From Skermanella rosea (GTDB lineage: Bacteria > Pseudomonadota > Alphaproteobacteria > Azospirillales > Azospirillaceae), in NCBI RefSeq assembly GCF_016806835.2, contig NZ_CP086111.1, positions 1-64,000 of the forward strand: a stretch of 64,000 nt of DNA. The letters are read 5' to 3'. Numbering within the stretch: the first letter of the stretch is position 1; each line of letters opens with the position of its first letter. A program made the translations under genes and the position numbers. Shown piece by piece: positions 37,431 to 48,622 of this stretch. The notes under the pieces are model-generated. The model was not told the DNA's origin and ran no database searches. It saw only the letters and a list, made by a program, of their open reading frames with translations.

Positions 37431-37626
37431 TTCGGGTCCCCTTGGGGCATGATGGTCGCGTCTGGTGATGGGTCGATATGCGAGCTATAGCATTCCGGAT
37501 CGAAAGGTGCGTGGCAAATATGCCCCGCGCCGCAGCACCGGCCTTCCCCTTGCGATAACGAACGAGAACCCGCTTTGCTGCATCCGGGAGCATGGCCGGA
37601 GCGGAAGCGGTCCCGGCATGTGAAGG

Positions 37627-37677
37627 CCCGGACTTTGGGCAGACCCGGACTTTGGACAGACCCGGACTTTGGACAGA
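37627..37677 (+). repeat. Three tandem 17-base repeats upstream of the thioesterase gene
   Basis: CCCGGACTTTGG(G/A)CAGA is repeated three times without gaps (37627-37643, 37644-37660, 37661-37677). Copies 2 and 3 are identical and copy 1 differs at one base. The array ends 5 bases before the thioesterase ATG. It could be a regulator-binding array, or a slippage product. Confidence 0.9.
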
Positions 37678-37682
37678 CAGGG

Positions 37683-38126
37683 ATGAACGACATGGCAGAT
37701 ACGGAAACTCCGGAAGCGACCAGCCCGGATTTCTACCGGTACTGGATCGACGAGACAGTCCGCTTCGCGGACCTGGATCCCGTCGGGCACGTCAACAACG
37801 CCGCCATCAGTACCTATTTCGAGAGCGCCCGGGTGGCGTTGTTCCATGACTCCGGCAATTCGCCTGTCTCGGGCCCGCGCTCGGTCGTGATCGCGCGTCT
37901 CACCATCGATTTCCGGGCCGAGCTGCACTATCCCGGCCGGATCCGGATCGGCCTGCGGGTGACCCGGTTCGGCCGTTCGTCGCTGACCCTGGCAGGCGCC
38001 GTGTTCCGTGACGACACCTGCGTCGCGACCAGCGAGGCGATCTGCGTCATCATCGACGTGGCGCAGCGCCGCTCGGTCGAGATCTCGGCCGACGTCCGGG
38101 CGCGCCTGGCCGAGCTGGCCGGCTGA
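37683..38126 (+). CDS. Acyl-CoA thioesterase, hotdog fold (YbgC/4HBT type)
   Basis: This 147-residue hotdog protein has the 4HBT-type active region (VRFADLDPVGHVNNAAISTYFESARVALF), with the Asp usually catalytic in this family. Central strands follow (VVIARLTIDFRAELHYPGRIRIGLRVTRFG). It cleaves acyl- or aryl-CoA thioesters; the substrate is unknown. ATG 37683 directly follows a repeat array. ATG 37692 has AGGGA at a better distance and may be the true start. It ends 3 bases before the RNA methyltransferase gene, so the two form an operon. Confidence 0.88.
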   Translation: MNDMADTETPEATSPDFYRYWIDETVRFADLDPVGHVNNAAISTYFESARVALFHDSGNSPVSGPRSVVIARLTIDFRAELHYPGRIRIGLRVTRFGRSSLTLAGAVFRDDTCVATSEAICVIIDVAQRRSVEISADVRARLAELAG

Positions 38127-38129
38127 GCC

Positions 38130-39452
38130 ATGGCACGCCGACCCCAGCAGGGGCACCGCCGCGGGAGGGCCGCATCCGCCTCCGGCGCTCCCGTCACGCT
38201 CGAGATCCAGGAAATCGGCGCGCGGGGCGACGGCCTCGCCGAGCATGACGGACGCCGGGTCTATGTGCCGCTGACGGTGGCCGGCGACCGCGTCCGCGCC
38301 GCGCTCGGCGAGCCGCGCGGGGACGGCGTCGCCGCCACCCTGCTGGAGGTGACGGAACCCGGCCCGGACCGCGCGGCGCCGCCCTGCCGGCATTTCGGCA
38401 CCTGCGGCGGCTGCGCGCTCCAACATGTCGGCGATGCGGCCTACGGCGCCTGGAAGCGCGCCCAGGTATCGGCCGCGCTGGCCCGCGCCGGGCTGGCCGG
38501 TGCCGAGGTCGCGCCGACCGTCCGGACCCCCGCGGCGAGCCGCCGGCGCGCCACGTTCGCGGCGGCCAGGCGGGGGAGCCGATGCGTCCTGGGCTTCAAC
38601 GAGCGGTCGAGCCACCGGATCTCGGCGGTGACCGGCTGCCTGGTGGTCGAGCCGGCGATACTGGAGCTGCTGGCTCCGCTGGAGGCCCTTGCCGGCGCCA
38701 TCCTGCCGGACGGCGAAACGGCCGATATTTCCGTGGCGGTGCTGGACGGCGGCATCGACCTGGTTCTGACCGGCGGTCCGGAGCCCGGGCTGGACGCGCG
38801 GGAACGCATGGCCGCCTTCGCGGAGGCCCATGACATCGGCCGGCTGTCGTGGCGCCGTTCCGCCGCGGCCCCGGCGGAACCGGTCGCCGCTCGCCGCGCG
38901 CTCCATGCCCGGTTCGGCGGGGTCGCCGTCCCGGTGGAGCCCGGAGCCTTCCTGCAGGCGAGTGCCGCCGGCGAAGCCGCGCTGGTCGAGGCGGTCCTGG
39001 CAGGGGTCGGGGCCGCCGCCCGGGTCGCCGACCTGTTCGCGGGGCTTGGCACCTTCAGCTTCCCCCTTGCCTCGCGACCGGTCCCGGGGACCGCCGTCCA
39101 CGCGGTCGAGGGCGATGCCTCGGCGCACGCGGCGCTGGCCGCCGCCGGCCGGGGGCGGGCGGGCGTGACGGCGGAGCGCCGCGACCTCTTCGCCGACCCG
39201 CTGAGCGCCGACGAACTTTCCCGCTTCGATGCGGTGGTCTTCGACCCGCCCCGCGCCGGCGCCCGCGCCCAATCGGTCCAACTCGCCGCGTCGGCCGTCC
39301 CCACGGTGGTCGGCGTGTCCTGCAACCCCGCGACATTCGCGCGCGACGCCCGCACGCTCGTCGATGGCGGCTATCGCCTGGAGCGGGTCACGCCGATCGA
39401 CCAGTTCATTTGGTCGTCCCATGTCGAGCTGGTCGGGGTGTTCCGGCGGTAG
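38130..39452 (+). CDS. TrmA/RlmD-family RNA (uracil-5) methyltransferase
   Basis: This 440-residue SAM enzyme should make 5-methyluridine in rRNA or tRNA. It has an N-terminal TRAM domain (about 22-75). A cysteine set for a 4Fe-4S cluster follows (PPCRHFGTCGGCALQH, and the later GCLVVEP Cys). Next are the SAM motif (VADLFAGLGTFSFPLA), DPPRAGA and the catalytic SCNPATFARD. Specific position in RNA (RlmC/RlmD/TrmA) cannot be settled. A three-base gap from the thioesterase suggests one operon. Confidence 0.9.
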   Translation: MARRPQQGHRRGRAASASGAPVTLEIQEIGARGDGLAEHDGRRVYVPLTVAGDRVRAALGEPRGDGVAATLLEVTEPGPDRAAPPCRHFGTCGGCALQHVGDAAYGAWKRAQVSAALARAGLAGAEVAPTVRTPAASRRRATFAAARRGSRCVLGFNERSSHRISAVTGCLVVEPAILELLAPLEALAGAILPDGETADISVAVLDGGIDLVLTGGPEPGLDARERMAAFAEAHDIGRLSWRRSAAAPAEPVAARRALHARFGGVAVPVEPGAFLQASAAGEAALVEAVLAGVGAAARVADLFAGLGTFSFPLASRPVPGTAVHAVEGDASAHAALAAAGRGRAGVTAERRDLFADPLSADELSRFDAVVFDPPRAGARAQSVQLAASAVPTVVGVSCNPATFARDARTLVDGGYRLERVTPIDQFIWSSHVELVGVFRR

Positions 39453-39472: not shown

Positions 39473-39856
39473 TCAGTCGCGCCGGATGAAGATCCAGCAG
39501 CCGCCGTCCGAGGCGGGCTGGATGCGCACCTGGAGCTCCCGCGAGCGGTCGGCGAAATCGCCGATCCAGCCGAATTCCAGGTCGAACTTCCCGGCTGCCC
39601 TGGCACTCTCGATCCGGCCGCGGAAAGCCTCGTTGTCCATGCAGGGCGCCATGTCGGAGAAGAACGGCCGGCCGAGCGCCGGACGGGCCCCGTAGCCGGA
39701 AAGCCGGGCCTCCGCGGCACTGTAGAAGGCAACCTCGCCGTTGGCGTCGAGGCGGATCGCCCCGAACGGCAGCGCATCGACCTCGGACGGCGGCAACCGT
39801 TCGACGACGCCGGCGAGATCGGGCATGTCGAAGTCGACTCCGGATGCGTCGTTCAT
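39473..39856 (-). CDS. pyp: Photoactive yellow protein (PYP)-like PAS photoreceptor
   Basis: The 127-residue product aligns almost end to end, with a constant offset of 3, to photoactive yellow protein of Halorhodospira halophila (125 residues). The chromophore Cys69 is kept (C72, in MAPCMD), and so are Tyr42 (Y45) and Glu46 (E49), which hold the phenolate. Thr50 is Ser (S53) and Arg52 is Tyr (Y55). The LPFGAIRLDANGEV and WIFIRRD ends also match. PYP binds p-coumaric acid and responds to blue light. The ATG overlaps the stop of the hybrid kinase gene, so the two are co-translated. Chromophore-making enzymes (TAL, coumaroyl-CoA ligase) are not in this window, so photochemistry is inferred. Confidence 0.88.
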   Translation of the reverse strand: MNDASGVDFDMPDLAGVVERLPPSEVDALPFGAIRLDANGEVAFYSAAEARLSGYGARPALGRPFFSDMAPCMDNEAFRGRIESARAAGKFDLEFGWIGDFADRSRELQVRIQPASDGGCWIFIRRD

Positions 39857-42800
39857 GGCCTTCTCCGCTGTTGGAGGTCGGAACTCGCGAGATCGGTGAA
39901 ACAGGCGACGCCCAGGATGTGGGTCACCGCGGAACCCTCCTCCGAAAGCGGCAGCAACAGCCGCTCGAACAGCAGCGGCGCGTCGTCGGCGATCGCGTAG
40001 CGGGCGTATTCGTAGGAGGGCGACTCCGACTCGACGCAGCGCCGGTACGAGGCTCCGGCGGAACCCAGCTCGTCGCCGCCGTCGTCGACCAGTTCCCCCA
40101 CCAGCGGCCGGCCCAGCCGTCGGGCAAGGGTGTCGCCGATCCTCAGGTAACGGAACTCCCTGGTACGGCCGCTGCCGATCGCCTCGACCAGGAAACCGTC
40201 GTCGGCCACGAGCGGGTCGCCGGACGGGAAGAGGTCGGGACTCGGCAGGTGGCCGTCCGCGCCGCGCGCCGTCTTCCAGCGTTCGTAGGCATCGCGCAGG
40301 CGGGAGTTCCTCAATCGGTTGCGAAGCTTGTCCGGCGCCGCCACGGACCCGGCCGGCAATGCCGACGGCAGGAGGTCCAGCCGTTCCCGGACGGCCTCGG
40401 CCAGTTCCGTCTTGCTGAACGGCTTGCGGAGCAGCCGTTCGCCGTCCGGCACGGTGTCGTGGCGGTCGCCGCTGATGAAGAGGACCGGAAGGTTCGGCCG
40501 GTCGAGCCGCAGCCGGTTTCCCAGCACCGGGCCGGAGTCGCCCGGCATCATGATGTCGGTCACGACGATGTCCAGCGTGTCCGTGAGATGCGCCAGGGCG
40601 ATCGCGGTCTCGGCGCTCTGTGCCTCGATCACCGCGTAGCCGAGATCGCGCAGCAGGTGCGCGGTCAGCGCGCGGAGGCTGTCGTCGTCGTCGACCAGCA
40701 GGATCGTGGCACCGCCCTCCGGCGGGGCCGATCCGGCATCCGGCAGCGTTTCGTCCCCGTGCGCCAAGATCTGGGCGCGGGGCAGGTACAGCTCGATCGT
40801 GGTGCCGGCCCCGACGGCGCTGAGGATGCGCAGCTTGCCGCCGGACTGCACGGTCAGGGCATGGGCGGAGGCGAGGCCGAGGCCGGTGCCCCGGCCGCGC
40901 GGCTTGGTGGTGAAGAAGGGTTCCGACGCCCGGGCGACCACGTCGGGCGTCATGCCCACGCCGCTGTCCTTCACGGAGATGAGGATCCCTTCGCGCGAGC
41001 CCGTGCGCTCGTCGGCGGGTTGGTTGCGGACGGTTATCTCCAGCTCGCCGCCGTCCGGCATGGCGTCGCGGGCGTTGGCGGCGAGGTTCAGCAGGACCGC
41101 GTTCAGACGGGAGGGATCGACGATCACCGGCCAGAGATCGCCCTGGAGATCGAAGGCGCAGCGCACCCCGCTGCCCGCGGTGTGGCAGATCATGTCTTCG
41201 CTTTCGCGCAGGATGGCGGTCAGGTCCACCAGGGTCGGCTGCGTTTCCTCGCGCCGGGCGAAGGCCAGCAGGTGATGGATCAGGCCGGTCGCCCGGACCA
41301 CCGCCTGCTCTCCCAGGTCGAGGATCCTGACCTGCTCCGGAACGTCGATCCGCCGCCTGAGCAGACTGTAGCTGCTCTGGATGACGGCCAGGATGTTGTT
41401 GAAGTCGTGCGAGACGCCGCTGACCAGCTGGCCCAGCGCTTCCAGCTTCTGGGACTGCAGCAGCGCCGCCTGGGTTTCCTCCCGTCGGCGGATCTCCGCC
41501 GTCAGTTCCCGGGCGGCGTCGGTCAGGGCGCGGGTGCGTTCGGCGACCCGCGCCTCCAGGGCCGCGTTGCTGTCGCGCAGGATGGCCTCGGCGGTCTTGC
41601 GCTCGGTGATGTCCCAGTTGACGCCGATGATGCGCTCGGGCCTGCCGGCCGCATTCCGCTGCACGCCGCACCGGATCGCCAGCCAGCGGATCTCCTCGGC
41701 GCCCCGGGTCGGGTCCGCCGGGCGCCGGATGCGGAAATCCAGTTCGAACCCTTCCCCCGTCCGGATCGCCTGATCGATTCGGTCCAGCAGGGCGGCGCGG
41801 TCCTCCGGCTCCATCAGGGCTCCGAACGCGTTCAGGCTTGGTGTCGGCGTGGCCGGATCGATCCCGAAGAGGCGGTACTGGATATCGCTCCAGGCCATCC
41901 GGCCGTCGGCCACGTCCATCTGCCAGGTGCCGATCACGGCGGCGTCGAGCGAGAAGCGCAGGCGTTCCTCGCTCTCGCGCAACGCGGCCTCGGCCTGCTT
42001 GCGGGCGGTGACGTCGGCGGTGATCCCGGTCAGGCGGACCTTGCGGCCGTCCCGATCGAAGACGGCCGCCGCGGACTCCTCGAGCCAGGCCACCGCGCCG
42101 TCCGGGCGCCGGTAGCGGTAGGAGACGGTGTAGTTCGGGGAAGCCGGCTCCAGCCGCGCCACGGTGGCGGCGAACCCGTCGCGGTCCTCCGCGTGGACGG
42201 ACGCGAAGAAATTCTGTCCGGTGTCCGCCGTCGCATCTCCGCCCAGGCCGAGGATCTCCGCGCAGCTCTCGCTCCGGCGCACGCTGTCGGTCCCGATGTC
42301 CCAGTCGAAGGCGAACATGCGGCCGGCGGTCATCGCGCGGGCCAGCTGCTCCTCGGCGTCGATCAGCCGGCGTTGCAGCAGCTTGATCGCGGTTATGTCC
42401 GTGGTGGTGCCGACGAAGCCGGTGATCTCCCCCGCATCGTCCCGTTCGACCAGGGCTTCGCCCAGAACCCAGGTGGTTTCGCCCGACGGCGTGCGGAAAC
42501 GGTATTCGAGACGGAAGGGCCGGTTCTCGAAGGCGCTGCGCCGCCATTCCGAGAAGACCCGGTCATGGTCCCCGGGATGCAGGAAGTCGGTCCAGCCGTT
42601 GCCGAGCGCCTGCTCCGGCCGGGCGCCGGATATCTCGCACCAGCGCTCGTTGACGCCGGTGCAGCGCCCCTCGGGATCGGTGCGGAAGATCCCCACCGGG
42701 GAGCTGAGTTTCAGGAGCCTGGAGTGGTTCTCGGCGGCGCGCAGCGCCGTCGACCCCTCGTCCAGCTTCTGGAAGGCCGTGGTGAGGGCCAGGCCGATCT

Positions 42801-43782
42801 CGTTGGCTTCCCGCCAGCCGGTGCGGATCCGGGGGACGGCTTCGCCGCCGCGCAAGGCGCTGCCGGCCAGGGTCAGCAGTTTGGCGGCCCGCGACATGCG
42901 CAGGCCCAGGCCATAGGCCAGGAGGGCGGAGAGGGCGAGAAGCGCGCCGCCCAGCAGGACGGGAGATCGGAGCCCGGCCATGGCCTCGGCATCGACGGCA
43001 TGGCCGGGCAGGGTGACGGTCGCGGTCCATCCCGTCAGGTCGGACCGGCTGTAGCCCGAAACGAGACCGGCCTCTCCGGGGCCGTCCTCTCCGGGGCCGG
43101 CGGAGGCCATGCCCCGGCCCGGGTGCTCCGGGGCCGGCACGCGGGTCAGGAGCTTGCCTCTGCGGTCGGCGACCGTGGCGGTCCGGCCGTCGCCGATGCG
43201 CGCCTGGATCAGGATTTCCTCGATGCGCTTCGGCGGCAGGCTCGCGATCAGGAAATAGGCGACCTTGTCGGCGTGCAGGACCGGCACGACGATGCCGACG
43301 GCCTCGGTTCCGGAGAGCGGTCCGATCAGCAGGTCGGATACGTGGGGCATCCTGGTTTCGAAAACGGACCGCGCGACATCGTCGTCCAGGAAGGACGGAA
43401 GCGGCGTGTTCCAGGGGACCCGCGTGTTGAGTCGCTGCTTTCCGGACCGGTCGGTCAGGATGATGACCATTCCGTAGCGCTCGGTGATCCGGCTCGCCTG
43501 CTGGTGGACGGTCGCGAAATCATCCTGCTGGAGGGCCGGCATCAGGGCCAGCGTCTCCAGCATCGCCATGACGCCCCGCATGTCCCGATCGACCATGGCC
43601 GTGATCGATCGGGCCTCCTGGTGCAGATCCTGCTCGATGTGCGACCGCTGAAGATCGACCTGCTGAATCAGCAGATAGGATGCGAAAACGGATGCCGGTA
43701 TAAGCAGGCCAAGGGAGAGTAAAATCAAATGTGCCCGGGTGGATATGACATGGCATCTGAGACATGGCAGAATTTTAGACAT
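39853..43782 (-). CDS. Membrane hybrid histidine kinase with three PAS domains, receiver and C-terminal PAS-like domain
   Basis: This 1309-residue sensor kinase has two membrane helices (about 17-38 and 271-295) flanking a Cache-like periplasmic domain. Three PAS domains follow (about 330-450, 470-590 and 595-730) and a coiled coil. Next come HisKA (H792 in SHDFNN) and HATPase (NLAANARDAM, SGVGM, GRGTGLGLA). A receiver domain has phosphoacceptor D1076 (VTDIMMPGD), and a PAS_5-like C-terminal domain starts near 1150. ATG 43782 is chosen, with ATG 43899 and 43965 as alternatives; the more distal N-terminus looks unlike a protein. Its stop overlaps the PYP-like ATG, suggesting a shared pathway. 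Output partner unknown. Confidence 0.88.
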   Translation of the reverse strand: MSKILPCLRCHVISTRAHLILLSLGLLIPASVFASYLLIQQVDLQRSHIEQDLHQEARSITAMVDRDMRGVMAMLETLALMPALQQDDFATVHQQASRITERYGMVIILTDRSGKQRLNTRVPWNTPLPSFLDDDVARSVFETRMPHVSDLLIGPLSGTEAVGIVVPVLHADKVAYFLIASLPPKRIEEILIQARIGDGRTATVADRRGKLLTRVPAPEHPGRGMASAGPGEDGPGEAGLVSGYSRSDLTGWTATVTLPGHAVDAEAMAGLRSPVLLGGALLALSALLAYGLGLRMSRAAKLLTLAGSALRGGEAVPRIRTGWREANEIGLALTTAFQKLDEGSTALRAAENHSRLLKLSSPVGIFRTDPEGRCTGVNERWCEISGARPEQALGNGWTDFLHPGDHDRVFSEWRRSAFENRPFRLEYRFRTPSGETTWVLGEALVERDDAGEITGFVGTTTDITAIKLLQRRLIDAEEQLARAMTAGRMFAFDWDIGTDSVRRSESCAEILGLGGDATADTGQNFFASVHAEDRDGFAATVARLEPASPNYTVSYRYRRPDGAVAWLEESAAAVFDRDGRKVRLTGITADVTARKQAEAALRESEERLRFSLDAAVIGTWQMDVADGRMAWSDIQYRLFGIDPATPTPSLNAFGALMEPEDRAALLDRIDQAIRTGEGFELDFRIRRPADPTRGAEEIRWLAIRCGVQRNAAGRPERIIGVNWDITERKTAEAILRDSNAALEARVAERTRALTDAARELTAEIRRREETQAALLQSQKLEALGQLVSGVSHDFNNILAVIQSSYSLLRRRIDVPEQVRILDLGEQAVVRATGLIHHLLAFARREETQPTLVDLTAILRESEDMICHTAGSGVRCAFDLQGDLWPVIVDPSRLNAVLLNLAANARDAMPDGGELEITVRNQPADERTGSREGILISVKDSGVGMTPDVVARASEPFFTTKPRGRGTGLGLASAHALTVQSGGKLRILSAVGAGTTIELYLPRAQILAHGDETLPDAGSAPPEGGATILLVDDDDSLRALTAHLLRDLGYAVIEAQSAETAIALAHLTDTLDIVVTDIMMPGDSGPVLGNRLRLDRPNLPVLFISGDRHDTVPDGERLLRKPFSKTELAEAVRERLDLLPSALPAGSVAAPDKLRNRLRNSRLRDAYERWKTARGADGHLPSPDLFPSGDPLVADDGFLVEAIGSGRTREFRYLRIGDTLARRLGRPLVGELVDDGGDELGSAGASYRRCVESESPSYEYARYAIADDAPLLFERLLLPLSEEGSAVTHILGVACFTDLASSDLQQRRRP

Positions 43783-44061
43783 GACCAGAAAATCCCCGGG
43801 TTTTCCCTGATTGCTTATTGAAGTTGGCAGGCCATGTGATTTAGGTGTCTTCTTGTTCGAAATAAAACTATTTATCAAGTCTGGCGGGCGTCCGAACATG
43901 GCGTCTGTTCGCCATGGGAAACCTGTACCTTGTATCATGCATTTCCCTTGGGGAGCCAGTGACATGAACCGGCATTCCCTATCCTGGTCTTCCGGTCCGG
44001 GTTCGTGATGGCCGGGCTGTCCTGCCCCTGTCTTGGCCGCCCCTTGCCGCCCTCTTCCGGA
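43783..44061. promoter_or_regulatory. AT-rich upstream region of the hybrid kinase gene
   Basis: This region between the RND pump end and the kinase start is markedly more AT-rich than its neighbours, especially 43800-43900. It contains TTGATA-like and TATTT stretches on the minus strand. It probably holds the kinase/PYP promoter; a single clear -35/-10 pair cannot be fixed. Confidence 0.45.
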
Positions 44062-47000
44062 TCACTCGGCGGCCGCCATCGCCGCGGCCGCCGCCTCGCG
44101 GTCTTCCCGGGCGAGCGCGGTCAGGCCGAAATCGTGCAGGATCGCGTAGAGCGACGGGACCACCAGCAGCACCAGGACGGTGGACGCCAGCAGGCCGAAC
44201 ACCAGGCTGACCACCAGCGGCTGGAGCACCTGGGCCTGGAGGCTTCGCTCGGCCAGCAGCGGCAGCAGCCCGGCGATGGTGGTCAGCGAGGTCAGCAGCA
44301 CCGCGCGGAAGCGCTGGCGGCTGGCGATCCGGGCGGCCGACACGACGTCGCGTCCCTCGCGCGCGCGGAGCTTGACGAACTCGACCAGCAGGATCGAGTC
44401 GTTGACCACGATGCCGGCCAGCGAGACGAAGCCGATCATGCTCGGCATGGACACGTCGAAGCCGGCCAGCCAGTGCCCCCAGACCACGCCGATCAGCGCC
44501 ATCGGGATCGCGACCATGACGATGACCGGCTCGACATAGCTGCGGAACTGCAGGCTCAGCAGCACGAAGATGCCGAACAGGCCGATCATGAATCCGTGCT
44601 TGAGGCTTTCGCCGGTCTTGCCCTGCTCGCGTTCCTGGCCCTCCAGCGTGATGTCGATCTCCGGGTAGCGGGCGCTCAGCTCGGGCAGGAAGCGCGCCCG
44701 CGTGTCGGCGATCACCTCGTTGGCGTTGGCGATGCGGGTATCGATCTCGCCCCGGACGATCACGGTGCGCCGGCCGTCGATCCGGCCGATCCGGGCATAC
44801 CCGCGGTCCGGCTCCAGCACCGCGATCGAGCGCAGCGGCGCCTGGCTTCCGTCGGGCAGGGTGACCGGGAAATCCTCCAGGTCGGCCAGCGTGGTCCGGT
44901 CGGCGGCTGCCAGCCGGACGTCGACCTCGATCGATTCGCTGCCGACCTGAAGCTCCGCCGCGGTCTGGCCGAAATATGCTGCCCGGAGCTGGGTCGCGAG
45001 TGCCGCCGAGTCGAGCCCCTGGCCGAAGATGCCTTCGCGCAGGCGGAGCCCCATCTCGGGCTTGCCGGGGCGCAGGTCGTCGGACAGGTCCTCGACGCCC
45101 CGGTAGCGGCCCAGCCAATCCTGGAGTTCCAGGGAGGCCGCCTTCAGCCGGTCCAGGTCGCCGCCGGCCAGCCTGATGTCGATCGGCAGGCCGCCGGGGC
45201 CGACCTGCGCCTCCTTGAAGGTCAGGGCCAGCACGTCGGGCAGGGGGCCGATCTCGGCCCGCCACAGGGCGGTGATCTCGTCGATCGTGCCGTCCCGCCG
45301 CTCGGCGGTGAGCAGGTCGGCGGAGACCGAGGCGAGGTGCGGCCCGGTCTCGTAGGCGTCCTGGTTCTCGTTGAAGCGCACGGTCACCGCCCGCACCAGG
45401 GCGGCGCCGTCGGGCTGGCGCGGGGCGAGATGCGCCGCGACGCGGTCGAGCGCCCCGGTCACCCGGTCCACCACCTCCTCGGTCCGGGCCAGCGGCGTGC
45501 CCTGGGGAAGCAGGATGCGCGCCTCCAGCACGTTGCCGTCGATCTGAGGGAAGGCCCGGAACTTGACGGTGCCGCCGGCCAGCATGGCGGCGGACACCAG
45601 CACCGCGCAGATCACCAGCCCCAGGGTCAGGTAGCGCCACTCCACCGCCCGGTCCACCAAGCCGCCGAGCAGCCGGTCGCGCACGAAGTCGAACCCGCGG
45701 TCGAGCCGGACCCGCACCGCGTTCCGCCGCTCGCCGCCGGGCGGGATGCTCTTCGCCAGATGGTGCGGCAGGATCAGGAAGGCCTCGACGATGCTGACCG
45801 TCAGCGCGATGATCAGCACCACCGGCAGGACCGCCATCACCTTGCCGATGTCGCCCTGCATCAGGATCAGCGGCCCGAACACGCAGACCGTGGTCACGTA
45901 GGAAGCGAAAACCCCCGACGCGACCTCGCGCGTGCCGTCGATCACCGCCTCCATCGGCGGCAGCCCCGCGGCCAGCTTGGTCGCCACGTTCTCGGCGATC
46001 ACGATGGCGTCGTCCATCAGCAGGCCCAGCGCGATCAGCAGGCCCACCATGGTGATCATGTTGATCGACAGGCCCATGAACTGCATGGCGAAGACGGTGC
46101 CGGCCAGCGCCACCGGCAGGCCCATGGCGACCCAGAAGGAATAGCGCAGGCTGAAGAACAGCCACATGGACAGGAAGACCAGCGCGATCCCCTGGAACGC
46201 GTTGCCGGTCAGCATGTCCAGCCGGTCCTGCACGATGGAGGAGACGTCCTGGGTCAGCGCGTAGCCGACGCCGGGAGGGGCGGTGCGCAGCTCCTGCTCG
46301 ACGAAGCCGCGGACCGCGGCCATGACCCGGAGCGTGTCCTGCTGCTTGGTCTTGGTCACGCGGAGCATGGCGGCGCGCTCGCCGTCGAACAGTGTCTTGG
46401 CCTCGTCCAGCTCGAACCGTTCGGTGATCGCCGCGATGGCGCCCAGCCGCACCTCGCCGCCGCCGGTCCCGCCGATCACGACGAGGTCGGTCAACTGGCG
46501 CACGGTCCGCCGCTCGTCGGCGAAACGGACGGTCAGGCTGCGCTCCTCCGTCTCCAGGGTGCCGGCCGGCTGGTCCAGGCTCTGGCGGCCGATGATGCCG
46601 GCGACGTCGGCGACGCTCAGCCCGTGGGCGCGCAGCGCGCCCTGGTCCAGCTCGACCCGGATCTGGCGCTGGGAGAAGCCGGTCAGCGTCGCTTCCGACA
46701 CCTCCGGCAGGCGCAGCAGGCGCTCGCGCACGCCCTCGGCGTAGATCTTCAGGTCGGGCACCGACATCGGGCCGGTGATGGCGATCGACACCACCCGGTC
46801 GGTCAGGTTGAGCCGCTTGATCACCGGCCGCTCGACCAGGTCGGGGAAGGTGGTGATCGCCTCGACCTCGGCCTTGACGTCCTCCAGGAAGCGGTCGGGG
46901 TTGCCGCCCTCGACCATGTCGATGATCGCGGCGGCCAGCCCCTCGCGCGACTCGCAGCGGACCTCGTCCACGCCGCTGACGCCGGCGACCGCGTCCTCGA

Positions 47001-47193
47001 TGCGCTGGCAGACCGCCTCCTCGACCTCCTCCGCGCTGGCGCCGGGGTAGGGGACCTGGATCTGCACCTGGCTGAGGGTGAAGTCGGGGAAGGTCTCCCG
47101 CCGCAGCGACGGCGCCGTGACCAGCCCGATCACCAGCAGGAACAGCATCAGCAGGTTGGCGGCGGTCGGGTGGCGGGCGAACCAGGCGATCAT
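44062..47193 (-). CDS. RND efflux transporter permease (AcrB/HAE1 type)
   Basis: This 1043-residue inner-membrane pump is the proton-driven transporter of a tripartite efflux system. It has the usual 12 helices, with an early periplasmic loop ([27 protein letters not shown]). The helix-4 acidic pair is in [18 protein letters not shown], and a second half mirrors the first ([20 protein letters not shown]). ATG 47193 starts the conserved [14 protein letters not shown]. The adaptor gene ends 13 bases upstream on the same strand, so they form an operon. No outer-membrane channel is adjacent. Substrate unknown. Confidence 0.93.
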
Positions 47194-47206
47194 GGCGGGT
47201 GCCCTG

Positions 47207-48622
47207 TCAATGCATCGGGGGTGCGGCGGCGGCATCCCGCGCGAGGCCGGACTCGGCGGCCTCGTCGCGGAGCGGCGCCAGCAGCATGCCCTCCACCGCC
47301 GGGATCAGGTCGGAGATCACGACGCGCTCGCCGGGCCTCAGTCCTTCCGCCACCGTCACGAAGCCGGCATGGGCGTCGGCGATCCTGACGCGGCGGATCT
47401 CCAGCCGGTCGTCGCGGGTAGCGACATGGACATGGTCTCCGGGCTGAAGGGCCGCCCGGGGGATCACCGGCACCGGCGGGCCGGGGGGAGCCTTCAATTC
47501 GACCTCGACGAACATGCCCTTGGTCAGCGGCGGCCGGATCCCCGGGATAGCCCGGGCATAGGGCTGGTCCACCACGACCATCACGTCGATCGTGCGCGTC
47601 TTGGGATCGACGCCGTCGCCCATGCGGGCGAACCGGGCCGGCCACTCGGCCGACAGGGTGCCGGTTCGCAGCCGGACCACCGCCTCCAGCCCCAGCCTGT
47701 CCAGCGGCGGCAGGCCGCGGTCGGGCTCGACCGAGCCGCCGCCGAGCAGGCCGGCGACCAGGGGGCGCAGCCGGTCGAGCGGCACCTGGGCCGCCACCTC
47801 GGCCAGCTCGATCCCGTCGGCGCCGGCGAGCTGCGTGCCGGGGGCGGCGTACTGGCCGCGCTCCACCGAGACCTCGTTGATCCGGCCGGCGAAGGGCATG
47901 CGGATCTCCGTCCGCTCCAGGGCCAGCCGGGCCTCGGCCAGCTGGGAGTCCTGGAGCGCCGCCGTGGCCCGCAGCTGGTCGCGCTGGCTGGGAATCAGTT
48001 CCAGCGAGGTCTGCTGGCCCTGGAGCCGCTGGCGCTGGGCCAGCATCGAGTTGAGCGCCTGGTCGAGCGCCGACTGGCTGCCGGCGCCGGAGGCCTGCAG
48101 GTTGCGCTTGCGTTCCACGTCCTGGGTGGTGACCGCCAGCGCCTCCCGCTCGATCGCGACCGCTTGGCGGAGGTTTTCCTCCCGGACGTCCAGTTCCCGG
48201 ATCTGCGCCTCGACGGAACGCTGCTGCGCCTCCATCCGGGCGATCGCCAGCTCGTAGTCGGCGGGATCGATCCGCACCAGCAAGGCGCCGGCCGGCAGCA
48301 GGGCGCCGCGCTTCAGGTCGGGATGGGTCTCGACGACGGTGCCGCCGACCTGGGCGATCGCGGTCCAGACCCGGTCGGGGCGCACCGTGCCGAAGCCGGT
48401 GGCGCGCGGGGCCACCGGCAGGGCCGCGACCTCGATCACCCGCGCCGGCCGGGCGGTCTCGGCCCGCTCGACCTGGACGGGTGCCGCCTTGTCGCGGGCG
48501 AAGCTGACGAGGACGAAGGCGCCCAGCAGGACGGGCGGGACGATCAGGAGGCGGCGCCACCATGACCTGCCCGTCGCCCCGGTTGCGGGGACCCGGCTTT
48601 CCCCGGGCCGGCTGGCGGACAT
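47207..48622 (-). CDS. RND efflux periplasmic adaptor (HlyD/MFP family)
   Basis: This 471-residue membrane-fusion protein couples the RND pump to the outer membrane. It has an N-terminal signal-anchor helix (LLIVPPVLLGAFVLVSFA). The lipoyl/barrel and long alpha-hairpin regions follow (AQIRELDVREENLRQ, and LNSMLAQRQRLQGQQTSLEL), then the C-terminal beta-barrel (VFVEV-like GMFVEVELKA) and membrane-proximal domain. GAGGAAAT lies before the ATG. It is directly upstream of the pump gene. Confidence 0.92.
   Translation of the reverse strand: MSASRPGESRVPATGATGRSWWRRLLIVPPVLLGAFVLVSFARDKAAPVQVERAETARPARVIEVAALPVAPRATGFGTVRPDRVWTAIAQVGGTVVETHPDLKRGALLPAGALLVRIDPADYELAIARMEAQQRSVEAQIRELDVREENLRQAVAIEREALAVTTQDVERKRNLQASGAGSQSALDQALNSMLAQRQRLQGQQTSLELIPSQRDQLRATAALQDSQLAEARLALERTEIRMPFAGRINEVSVERGQYAAPGTQLAGADGIELAEVAAQVPLDRLRPLVAGLLGGGSVEPDRGLPPLDRLGLEAVVRLRTGTLSAEWPARFARMGDGVDPKTRTIDVMVVVDQPYARAIPGIRPPLTKGMFVEVELKAPPGPPVPVIPRAALQPGDHVHVATRDDRLEIRRVRIADAHAGFVTVAEGLRPGERVVISDLIPAVEGMLLAPLRDEAAESGLARDAAAAPPMH

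Follow-up and report, generated by a model that had tools for sequence, protein, structure and literature searches.

A single-domain photoactive yellow protein of Skermanella rosea encoded next to a histidine kinase with a PAS_5-type tail

The first 64,000 nucleotides of contig NZ_CP086111.1 of Skermanella rosea, referred to here as the window, contain a gene for a small single-domain photoactive yellow protein (PYP) directly downstream of a gene for a hybrid histidine kinase, the two overlapping by 4 bp in the sequence ATGA (Table 1). The preliminary description of this DNA gave the correct position for pyp and the correct length of 127 residues for its product; to this we add the strand, which is minus, with the ATG start at 39856-39854 and the TGA stop at 39475-39473. 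A plus-strand reading of 39473-39856 was rejected as a shadow frame, as was the long plus-strand open reading frame at 39844-43722, which is opposite the kinase gene. Comparison with three congeners gave dN/dS values of 0.24–0.33 for pyp, indicating purifying selection. Genes for an RlmD-like methyltransferase and a thioesterase adjoin pyp (window 37575-39452). Both are also present in a genome of another genus of the same family (G012; L064:2568-4465), within about 8 kb of the pyp gene of that genome and its PAS_5 neighbour. The sharing of these neighbours suggests vertical inheritance of the pyp region.

The true start of the kinase is likely to be the ATG at 43782, as aligned with congener G001. 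The protein is of the membrane type and is composed of a dCache-like domain, three PAS domains, HisKA, HATPase, a receiver and a PAS_5-type domain, the dCache match being below the Pfam cut-off. The H-box, the N-box and the receiver Asp are all present. The PAS_5-type domain after the receiver is approximately 150 residues in length and has a PAS fold. The kinase gene is preceded, at a distance of about 280 bp from the likely start codon and in the same orientation, by the genes of an RND-type efflux pump (AcrB family, window 44062-48622, minus strand); the open reading frame upstream of the AcrB-family gene looks like its membrane-fusion partner.

Table 1. Coordinates of the features described, in the window unless another sequence is named.
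Feature	Position	Strand	Basis or remark
pyp, single-domain photoactive yellow protein, 127 aa	39473..39856	-	TIGR02373, PDB matches, AlphaFold/Foldseek, tree
Cys72 codon (= Cys69, chromophore thioester in the PYP family)	39641..39643	-	alignment
Glu49 codon (= Glu46)	39710..39712	-	alignment
Tyr45 codon (= Tyr42)	39722..39724	-	alignment
ATGA overlap: kinase TGA 39855-39853, pyp ATG 39856-39854	39853..39856	-	sequence
Hybrid histidine kinase open reading frame, 1370 aa as called	39853..43965	-	Pfam, key motifs, start codons
C-terminal PAS_5-type (PF07310-like) kinase domain, proposed docking domain	39892..40341	-	HMM, profile search, PAS fold
Receiver domain of kinase	40390..40704	-	Pfam
HATPase_c domain	40774..41118	-	Pfam
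HisKA, phospho-acceptor motif HDFNN (His853)	41245..41436	-	Pfam and motifs
Second PYP domain, C-terminal in a histidine kinase	G000 C1:1150390-1150737 (L024:8382-10373)	-	
PYP-type coumarate:CoA ligase-like gene, 411 aa, just upstream of the kinase-PYP fusion	L024:10336-11571	-	
Histidine-type ammonia lyase	L023:14780-16336 (G000 C1:1136920-1138302)	-	L103 in G001

The 127-residue protein is a genuine member of the PYP family. Its alignment with the PYP of H. halophila has 38 identities in 124 positions (31%) and a score of 183, against -45 ± 12 (maximum -5) for 500 shuffles; the reference sequence agrees with the letters of the PDB chain. The alignment had been described as gapless with an offset of 3. 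The offset holds over most of the length, but global alignment introduces a three-residue gap at the N-terminus and a one-residue gap near the C-terminus. The TIGR02373 (photo_yellow) model matches the protein at 92.5 bits (E = 2e-26), which is below its curated equivalog cut-off of 143.05. On the same model the PYPs of H. halophila and R. centenum score 225 and 204, and a clade-C-like PYP of Cupriavidus scores 71. TIGR02373 was built from four seeds and catches about 20% of PYPs (PMC9664959; this paper and PMC12826048 are cited for their main text throughout). Since the model matches so small a share of the family and the Cupriavidus protein scores only 71, the cut-off reflects a narrow model and not a defining property.

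All 33 PDB chains matched by phmmer are PYP entries (E from 2e-20 to 1.5e-13). The AlphaFold model (pLDDT 86) has the PYP version of the PAS fold, and Foldseek ranks PYP structures first (TM 0.86, E about 1e-10), with the first non-PYP PAS structure at E 8e-5, a gap of at least four orders of magnitude when the engineered FAST derivatives of PYP are excepted. In a tree of 38 PYPs and eight ordinary PAS domains from the same genome, the two sets are split with support of 97/99 and the window protein is among the PYPs. This bears out the family assignment of the preliminary description; a grouping with non-PYP PAS proteins, which had been named as the outcome that would count against it, was not seen. 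With several long branches among the outgroup and the PYPs, the tree is not used here to order the deep splits within PYP.

Is the chromophore site also that of a PYP? On a multiple alignment, Cys72, Tyr45 and Glu49 correspond to Cys69, Tyr42 and Glu46, and Ser53 and Tyr55 stand at the positions of Thr50 and Arg52, all as originally described. The protein has the residues by which PYPs are recognised: Cys69, Tyr or Phe at position 42, and Glu or Gln at position 46. Of these, Cys69 is the defining residue as used in PMC9664959, and it is invariant both in the closest relatives of the window protein and in the other PYPs placed in the residue alignments. Ile31, Phe62, Ala67 and Pro68 of the pocket are retained as well. 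The pocket replacements are Asn43 to Ser46, Val66 to Met, Phe79 to Ile, Phe96 to Gly99 and Met100 to Asp103. Those at Phe96, Met100, Asn43 and Phe79 are the less usual ones, and the first three of these are more distinctive than Ser53; Phe96 itself is only 56% conserved across the family (PMC12826048).

Ser53 and Tyr55 had been singled out as likely to shift colour or kinetics. This is reasonable, but these residues are not special, as the family consensus is Ala50 and Leu52 and not Thr50 and Arg52 (PMC12826048). Two PYPs with Ser50 that have been measured, those of R. centenum and S. ruber, absorb near 432–434 nm (PMC12826048). By analogy, Ser53 may place the absorption maximum of the window protein blue of 446 nm, at about 430–440 nm. 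The replacements Phe96 to Gly99, Met100 to Asp103 and Asn43 to Ser46 are more likely than Ser53 and Tyr55 to alter the kinetics. Met100 has been proposed to aid the return of the chromophore, and mutations of Phe96 slow the photocycle (PMC9664959); with no equivalent of Met100 and with Gly in place of Phe96, dark recovery is expected to be slow. From its family, p-coumarate would be bound on Cys72 and the protein is predicted to function in blue light.

Within the PYP tree the window protein belongs to a subclade of eight, with support of 100/100 and a long stem of 1.77 changes per site. Five of the members come from genomes of one genus, one of them matching the Skermanella aerolata locus L016 exactly. 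The others are from G012, from Rhodopila globiformis (L018) and from a metagenome-assembled genome labelled Rubellimicrobium (L017). The family shared by G012 and the window genome is that of Rhodospirillum centenum, whose Ppr PYP (G006) is identical to PDB 1mzu over the stretch compared. Cys69, Glu46, Ser50 and Gly96-Asp97-Phe98 are invariant in all eight members, and Tyr42 is kept in seven, with Phe in L035. A phylum-wide search with TIGR02373 returned few PYPs and no additional members of the subclade.

At every one of the eight loci, the gene directly upstream of pyp ends in a PAS_5-type domain. In seven this domain is the tail of a larger protein, which is a histidine kinase wherever it is complete; the contig of G004 ends inside the kinase gene, so that only its last 420 residues, from the receiver end, are seen. 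The eighth locus, that of G012, has a free-standing PAS_5 protein of 217 residues that aligns with the kinase tail and ends about 6 bp before pyp, and no kinase adjoins this pair. The stop of the upstream gene and the start of pyp are within 4 bp of each other in six loci and tens of bp apart in Rhodopila. The front end of the kinase differs between lineages of the subclade, being either dCache and PAS or PAS and GAF, and the tail and pyp stay together. In the Rhodopila kinase (L018:4060-7944, plus strand) the acidic pocket of the receiver looks altered (VEQEDQ versus VDDDD), and phosphotransfer may differ there as a result.

The tail of the window kinase is too diverged for Pfam PF07310, which gives no match at E 10, but an HMM of free-standing PAS_5 proteins does detect it. 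The Pfam model scores 16.1 bits on L017 and 46.8 bits on the free copy of G012, the cut-off being 22. The HMM, built from Azospirillaceae PAS_5 proteins encoded away from pyp, scores 53.8–117.6 bits on the eight upstream genes. These values are for whole proteins, and in some kinases short matches to other PAS domains contribute to them; the tail is the longest matched piece in every case. The window kinase scores 63.3 bits in this way, with its best piece at residues 1217-1358. At the other PYP loci examined, the same HMM gave weak matches at the level of generic PAS domains (up to 30.6 bits) and revealed no PAS_5 domain beside pyp. An HMM made from the tails themselves matches these eight loci alone among the PYP loci examined, and a profile search in the reverse direction, starting from the tails, reaches free PAS_5-like proteins throughout the class, with E down to 1.2e-17. 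A tree of PAS_5 domains unites the kinase tails in a clade (100/99) and puts the G012 protein closest to them (88/81, not starred, with long branches around it). Because the PAS_5 link is drawn from one clade, a single ancestral gene order may account for it without repeated selection. Its presence beside every close relative of the window PYP that was found makes the PAS_5-type domain a candidate signalling partner.

A second PYP encoded in the genome forms the C-terminal domain of a 663-residue PAS-PAS-HisKA-HATPase-PYP protein. Just upstream of it is a gene that matches the PYP-type 4-coumarate:CoA ligase model TIGR02372 at 296.9 bits (E 1.7e-88); this is below the curated cut-off of 334.7, so the ligase is identified by homology only. 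The arrangement is the same in congeners G001 and G002. The preliminary description had pointed to two genes for p-coumarate supply, and of these the genome has the coumarate:CoA ligase, but no tyrosine ammonia lyase was found in it, only a lyase of the histidine type. Histidine ammonia lyases carry a Ser-His motif, and tyrosine-type enzymes carry His-Leu. The single PF00221 gene found in the genome has Ser-His and passes the hutH cut-off. The second PYP lies about 12–13 kb away. The lyase is retained in congener G001, in whose genome (99% complete) no urocanase was found; despite the histidine-type motif, this leaves some room for tyrosine as its substrate. The absence of a tyrosine lyase does not exclude PYP function, as only 5% of pyp operons have one and uptake of p-coumarate has been suggested (PMC12826048).

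Further PYPs were seen in related and more distant genomes. S. aerolata has a third, canonical PYP that resembles that of H. halophila (L066:7005-7394, minus strand; L106, G003 C209), and about 2 kb from it lies an ammonia lyase gene whose product carries the His-Leu motif of tyrosine enzymes. A third PYP is present in G004 too (L045), close to the kinase-PYP fusion of that genome. In two genomes of about 1.3–1.6 Mb (G053 and G184; L043 and L055), a PYP-like domain ends a long frame and has Gln at position 46 and Ile for Pro68 (AICA versus APCT).

The window protein is like the H. halophila PYP (P16113; PDB 1nwz, 2phy) in length, PAS fold and the residues Cys69, Tyr42 and Glu46, and agrees with it at 14 of the 17 positions that are more than 70% conserved according to PMC12826048. 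It differs in overall identity (31%) and in the replacements Thr50 to Ser, Arg52 to Tyr, Phe96 to Gly, Met100 to Asp and Asn43 to Ser. Likewise, the H. halophila pyp operon contains coumarate:CoA ligase and tyrosine ammonia lyase genes, whereas the window pyp is accompanied by a kinase gene. Among characterised PYPs, the closest in bacterial family is that of R. centenum Ppr (PDB 1mzu), which also works with a histidine kinase and also has Ser50. In Ppr, however, the PYP retains Phe96 and Met100 and is the N-terminal part of a PYP-phytochrome-kinase fusion; in the window it is a separate protein encoded downstream of the kinase.

Published pyp operons include 17 with an upstream HisKA/HATPase gene, the order seen in the window, and PAS-PAS-HisKA-HATPase-PYP fusions, which is exactly the architecture of the second PYP of this genome; more than one PYP is present in 16% of genomes (PMC12826048). 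In its main text that paper gives no special mention to this subclade, nor to any PAS_5-type domain lying between a kinase and a PYP. Neither Skermanella nor Azospirillum is named in the main text of PMC9664959 or PMC12826048, the two papers behind the 984- and 789-member PYP sets, and a literature search on PYP and PAS_5 turned up no publication linking them. The window protein is thus a known kind of photoreceptor in a distinct subclade, with a consistent candidate partner domain that has apparently gone unreported.

How might this PYP signal? On balance we favour, without great confidence, a functional single-domain PYP that carries p-coumarate on Cys72 and passes a blue-light signal in trans to the co-translated kinase by way of its PAS_5-type tail. 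The features behind this proposal can be read from the sequence: the PYP family, the Cys-Tyr-Glu triad, the 4-bp overlap, the intact motifs of the kinase and its receiver, and a PAS_5-type neighbour at every locus of the subclade. The second, kinase-fused PYP and the PYP-type ligase of the same genome are in line with it. PYPs respond to light by isomerisation of the chromophore and partial unfolding. Here, blue light would isomerise the p-coumarate chromophore on Cys72 and the lit PYP would partly unfold. The changed protein would then alter its contact with the PAS_5-type tail of the kinase, in trans, and this in turn would change phosphorylation of the kinase or the receiver. We infer the chromophore, the spectrum and the kinetics, as well as docking on the PAS_5 domain and everything downstream. 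Several observations weigh against this reading: the altered pocket residues, a TIGR02373 score under the curated cut-off, the search for a tyrosine-type lyase that found none in the genome, the confinement of the PAS_5 link to one clade and the changed receiver pocket of the Rhodopila kinase. More tentatively, the subclade as a whole may be a distinct group of PYPs with a dedicated PAS_5-type partner that reads the light state of the PYP in trans and is joined to histidine kinases in most lineages.

Alternatively, the PYP may be functional and signal elsewhere, to a response regulator, a chemoreceptor or a c-di-GMP enzyme, the operon with the kinase meaning co-expression only. Other single-domain PYPs do adjoin chemoreceptors, GGDEF/EAL proteins or regulators (PMC9664959, PMC12826048), and the G012 pair has no adjoining kinase. 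We nevertheless think this unlikely, given the 4-bp overlap in Skermanella, an upstream PAS_5 tail conserved across two families and the existence in this genome of a kinase-PYP fusion as a parallel. A similarly doubtful explanation is that the protein is a divergent PYP in which the chromophore has been lost or changed, leaving an apo-protein, a carrier of another thioester-linked cinnamate or a redox or ligand sensor with the Cys kept by descent. The long stem branch, the altered pocket residues and the failure to find a tyrosine ammonia lyase in the genome are in keeping with this, and methylobacterial Ppr proteins have lost the chromophore Cys and likely gained a new function (PMC9664959), a loss also seen here in L058 and L059. 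Yet Cys69 and Glu46 are invariant in the subclade, and Tyr42 nearly so, despite divergence elsewhere; in addition, pyp is under purifying selection and the genome has a PYP-type ligase. That an ordinary non-PYP PAS domain has come to resemble a PYP at Cys, Tyr and Glu by chance is highly improbable and was rejected, for although generic Pfam PAS and PAS_4 models match the protein above their cut-offs, as they do true PYPs (PMC9664959), the tree split, the E-values and the fold search with PYPs ranked first all speak against it.

The signal output of single-domain PYPs has been described as an important gap (PMC12826048), and no direct partner protein is known for the classic single-domain PYP (PMC9664959). 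Overlapping genes, and a small domain that is conserved next to pyp throughout this subclade, point to a specific candidate partner that can be tested. The natural replacements of Phe96 by Gly and Met100 by Asp would test ideas on the speed of PYP recovery. If signalling to the kinase through its PAS_5-type tail is true, the two proteins would form a heteromeric PAS-PAS photoreceptor module, and a single-domain PYP would have a molecularly defined output partner.
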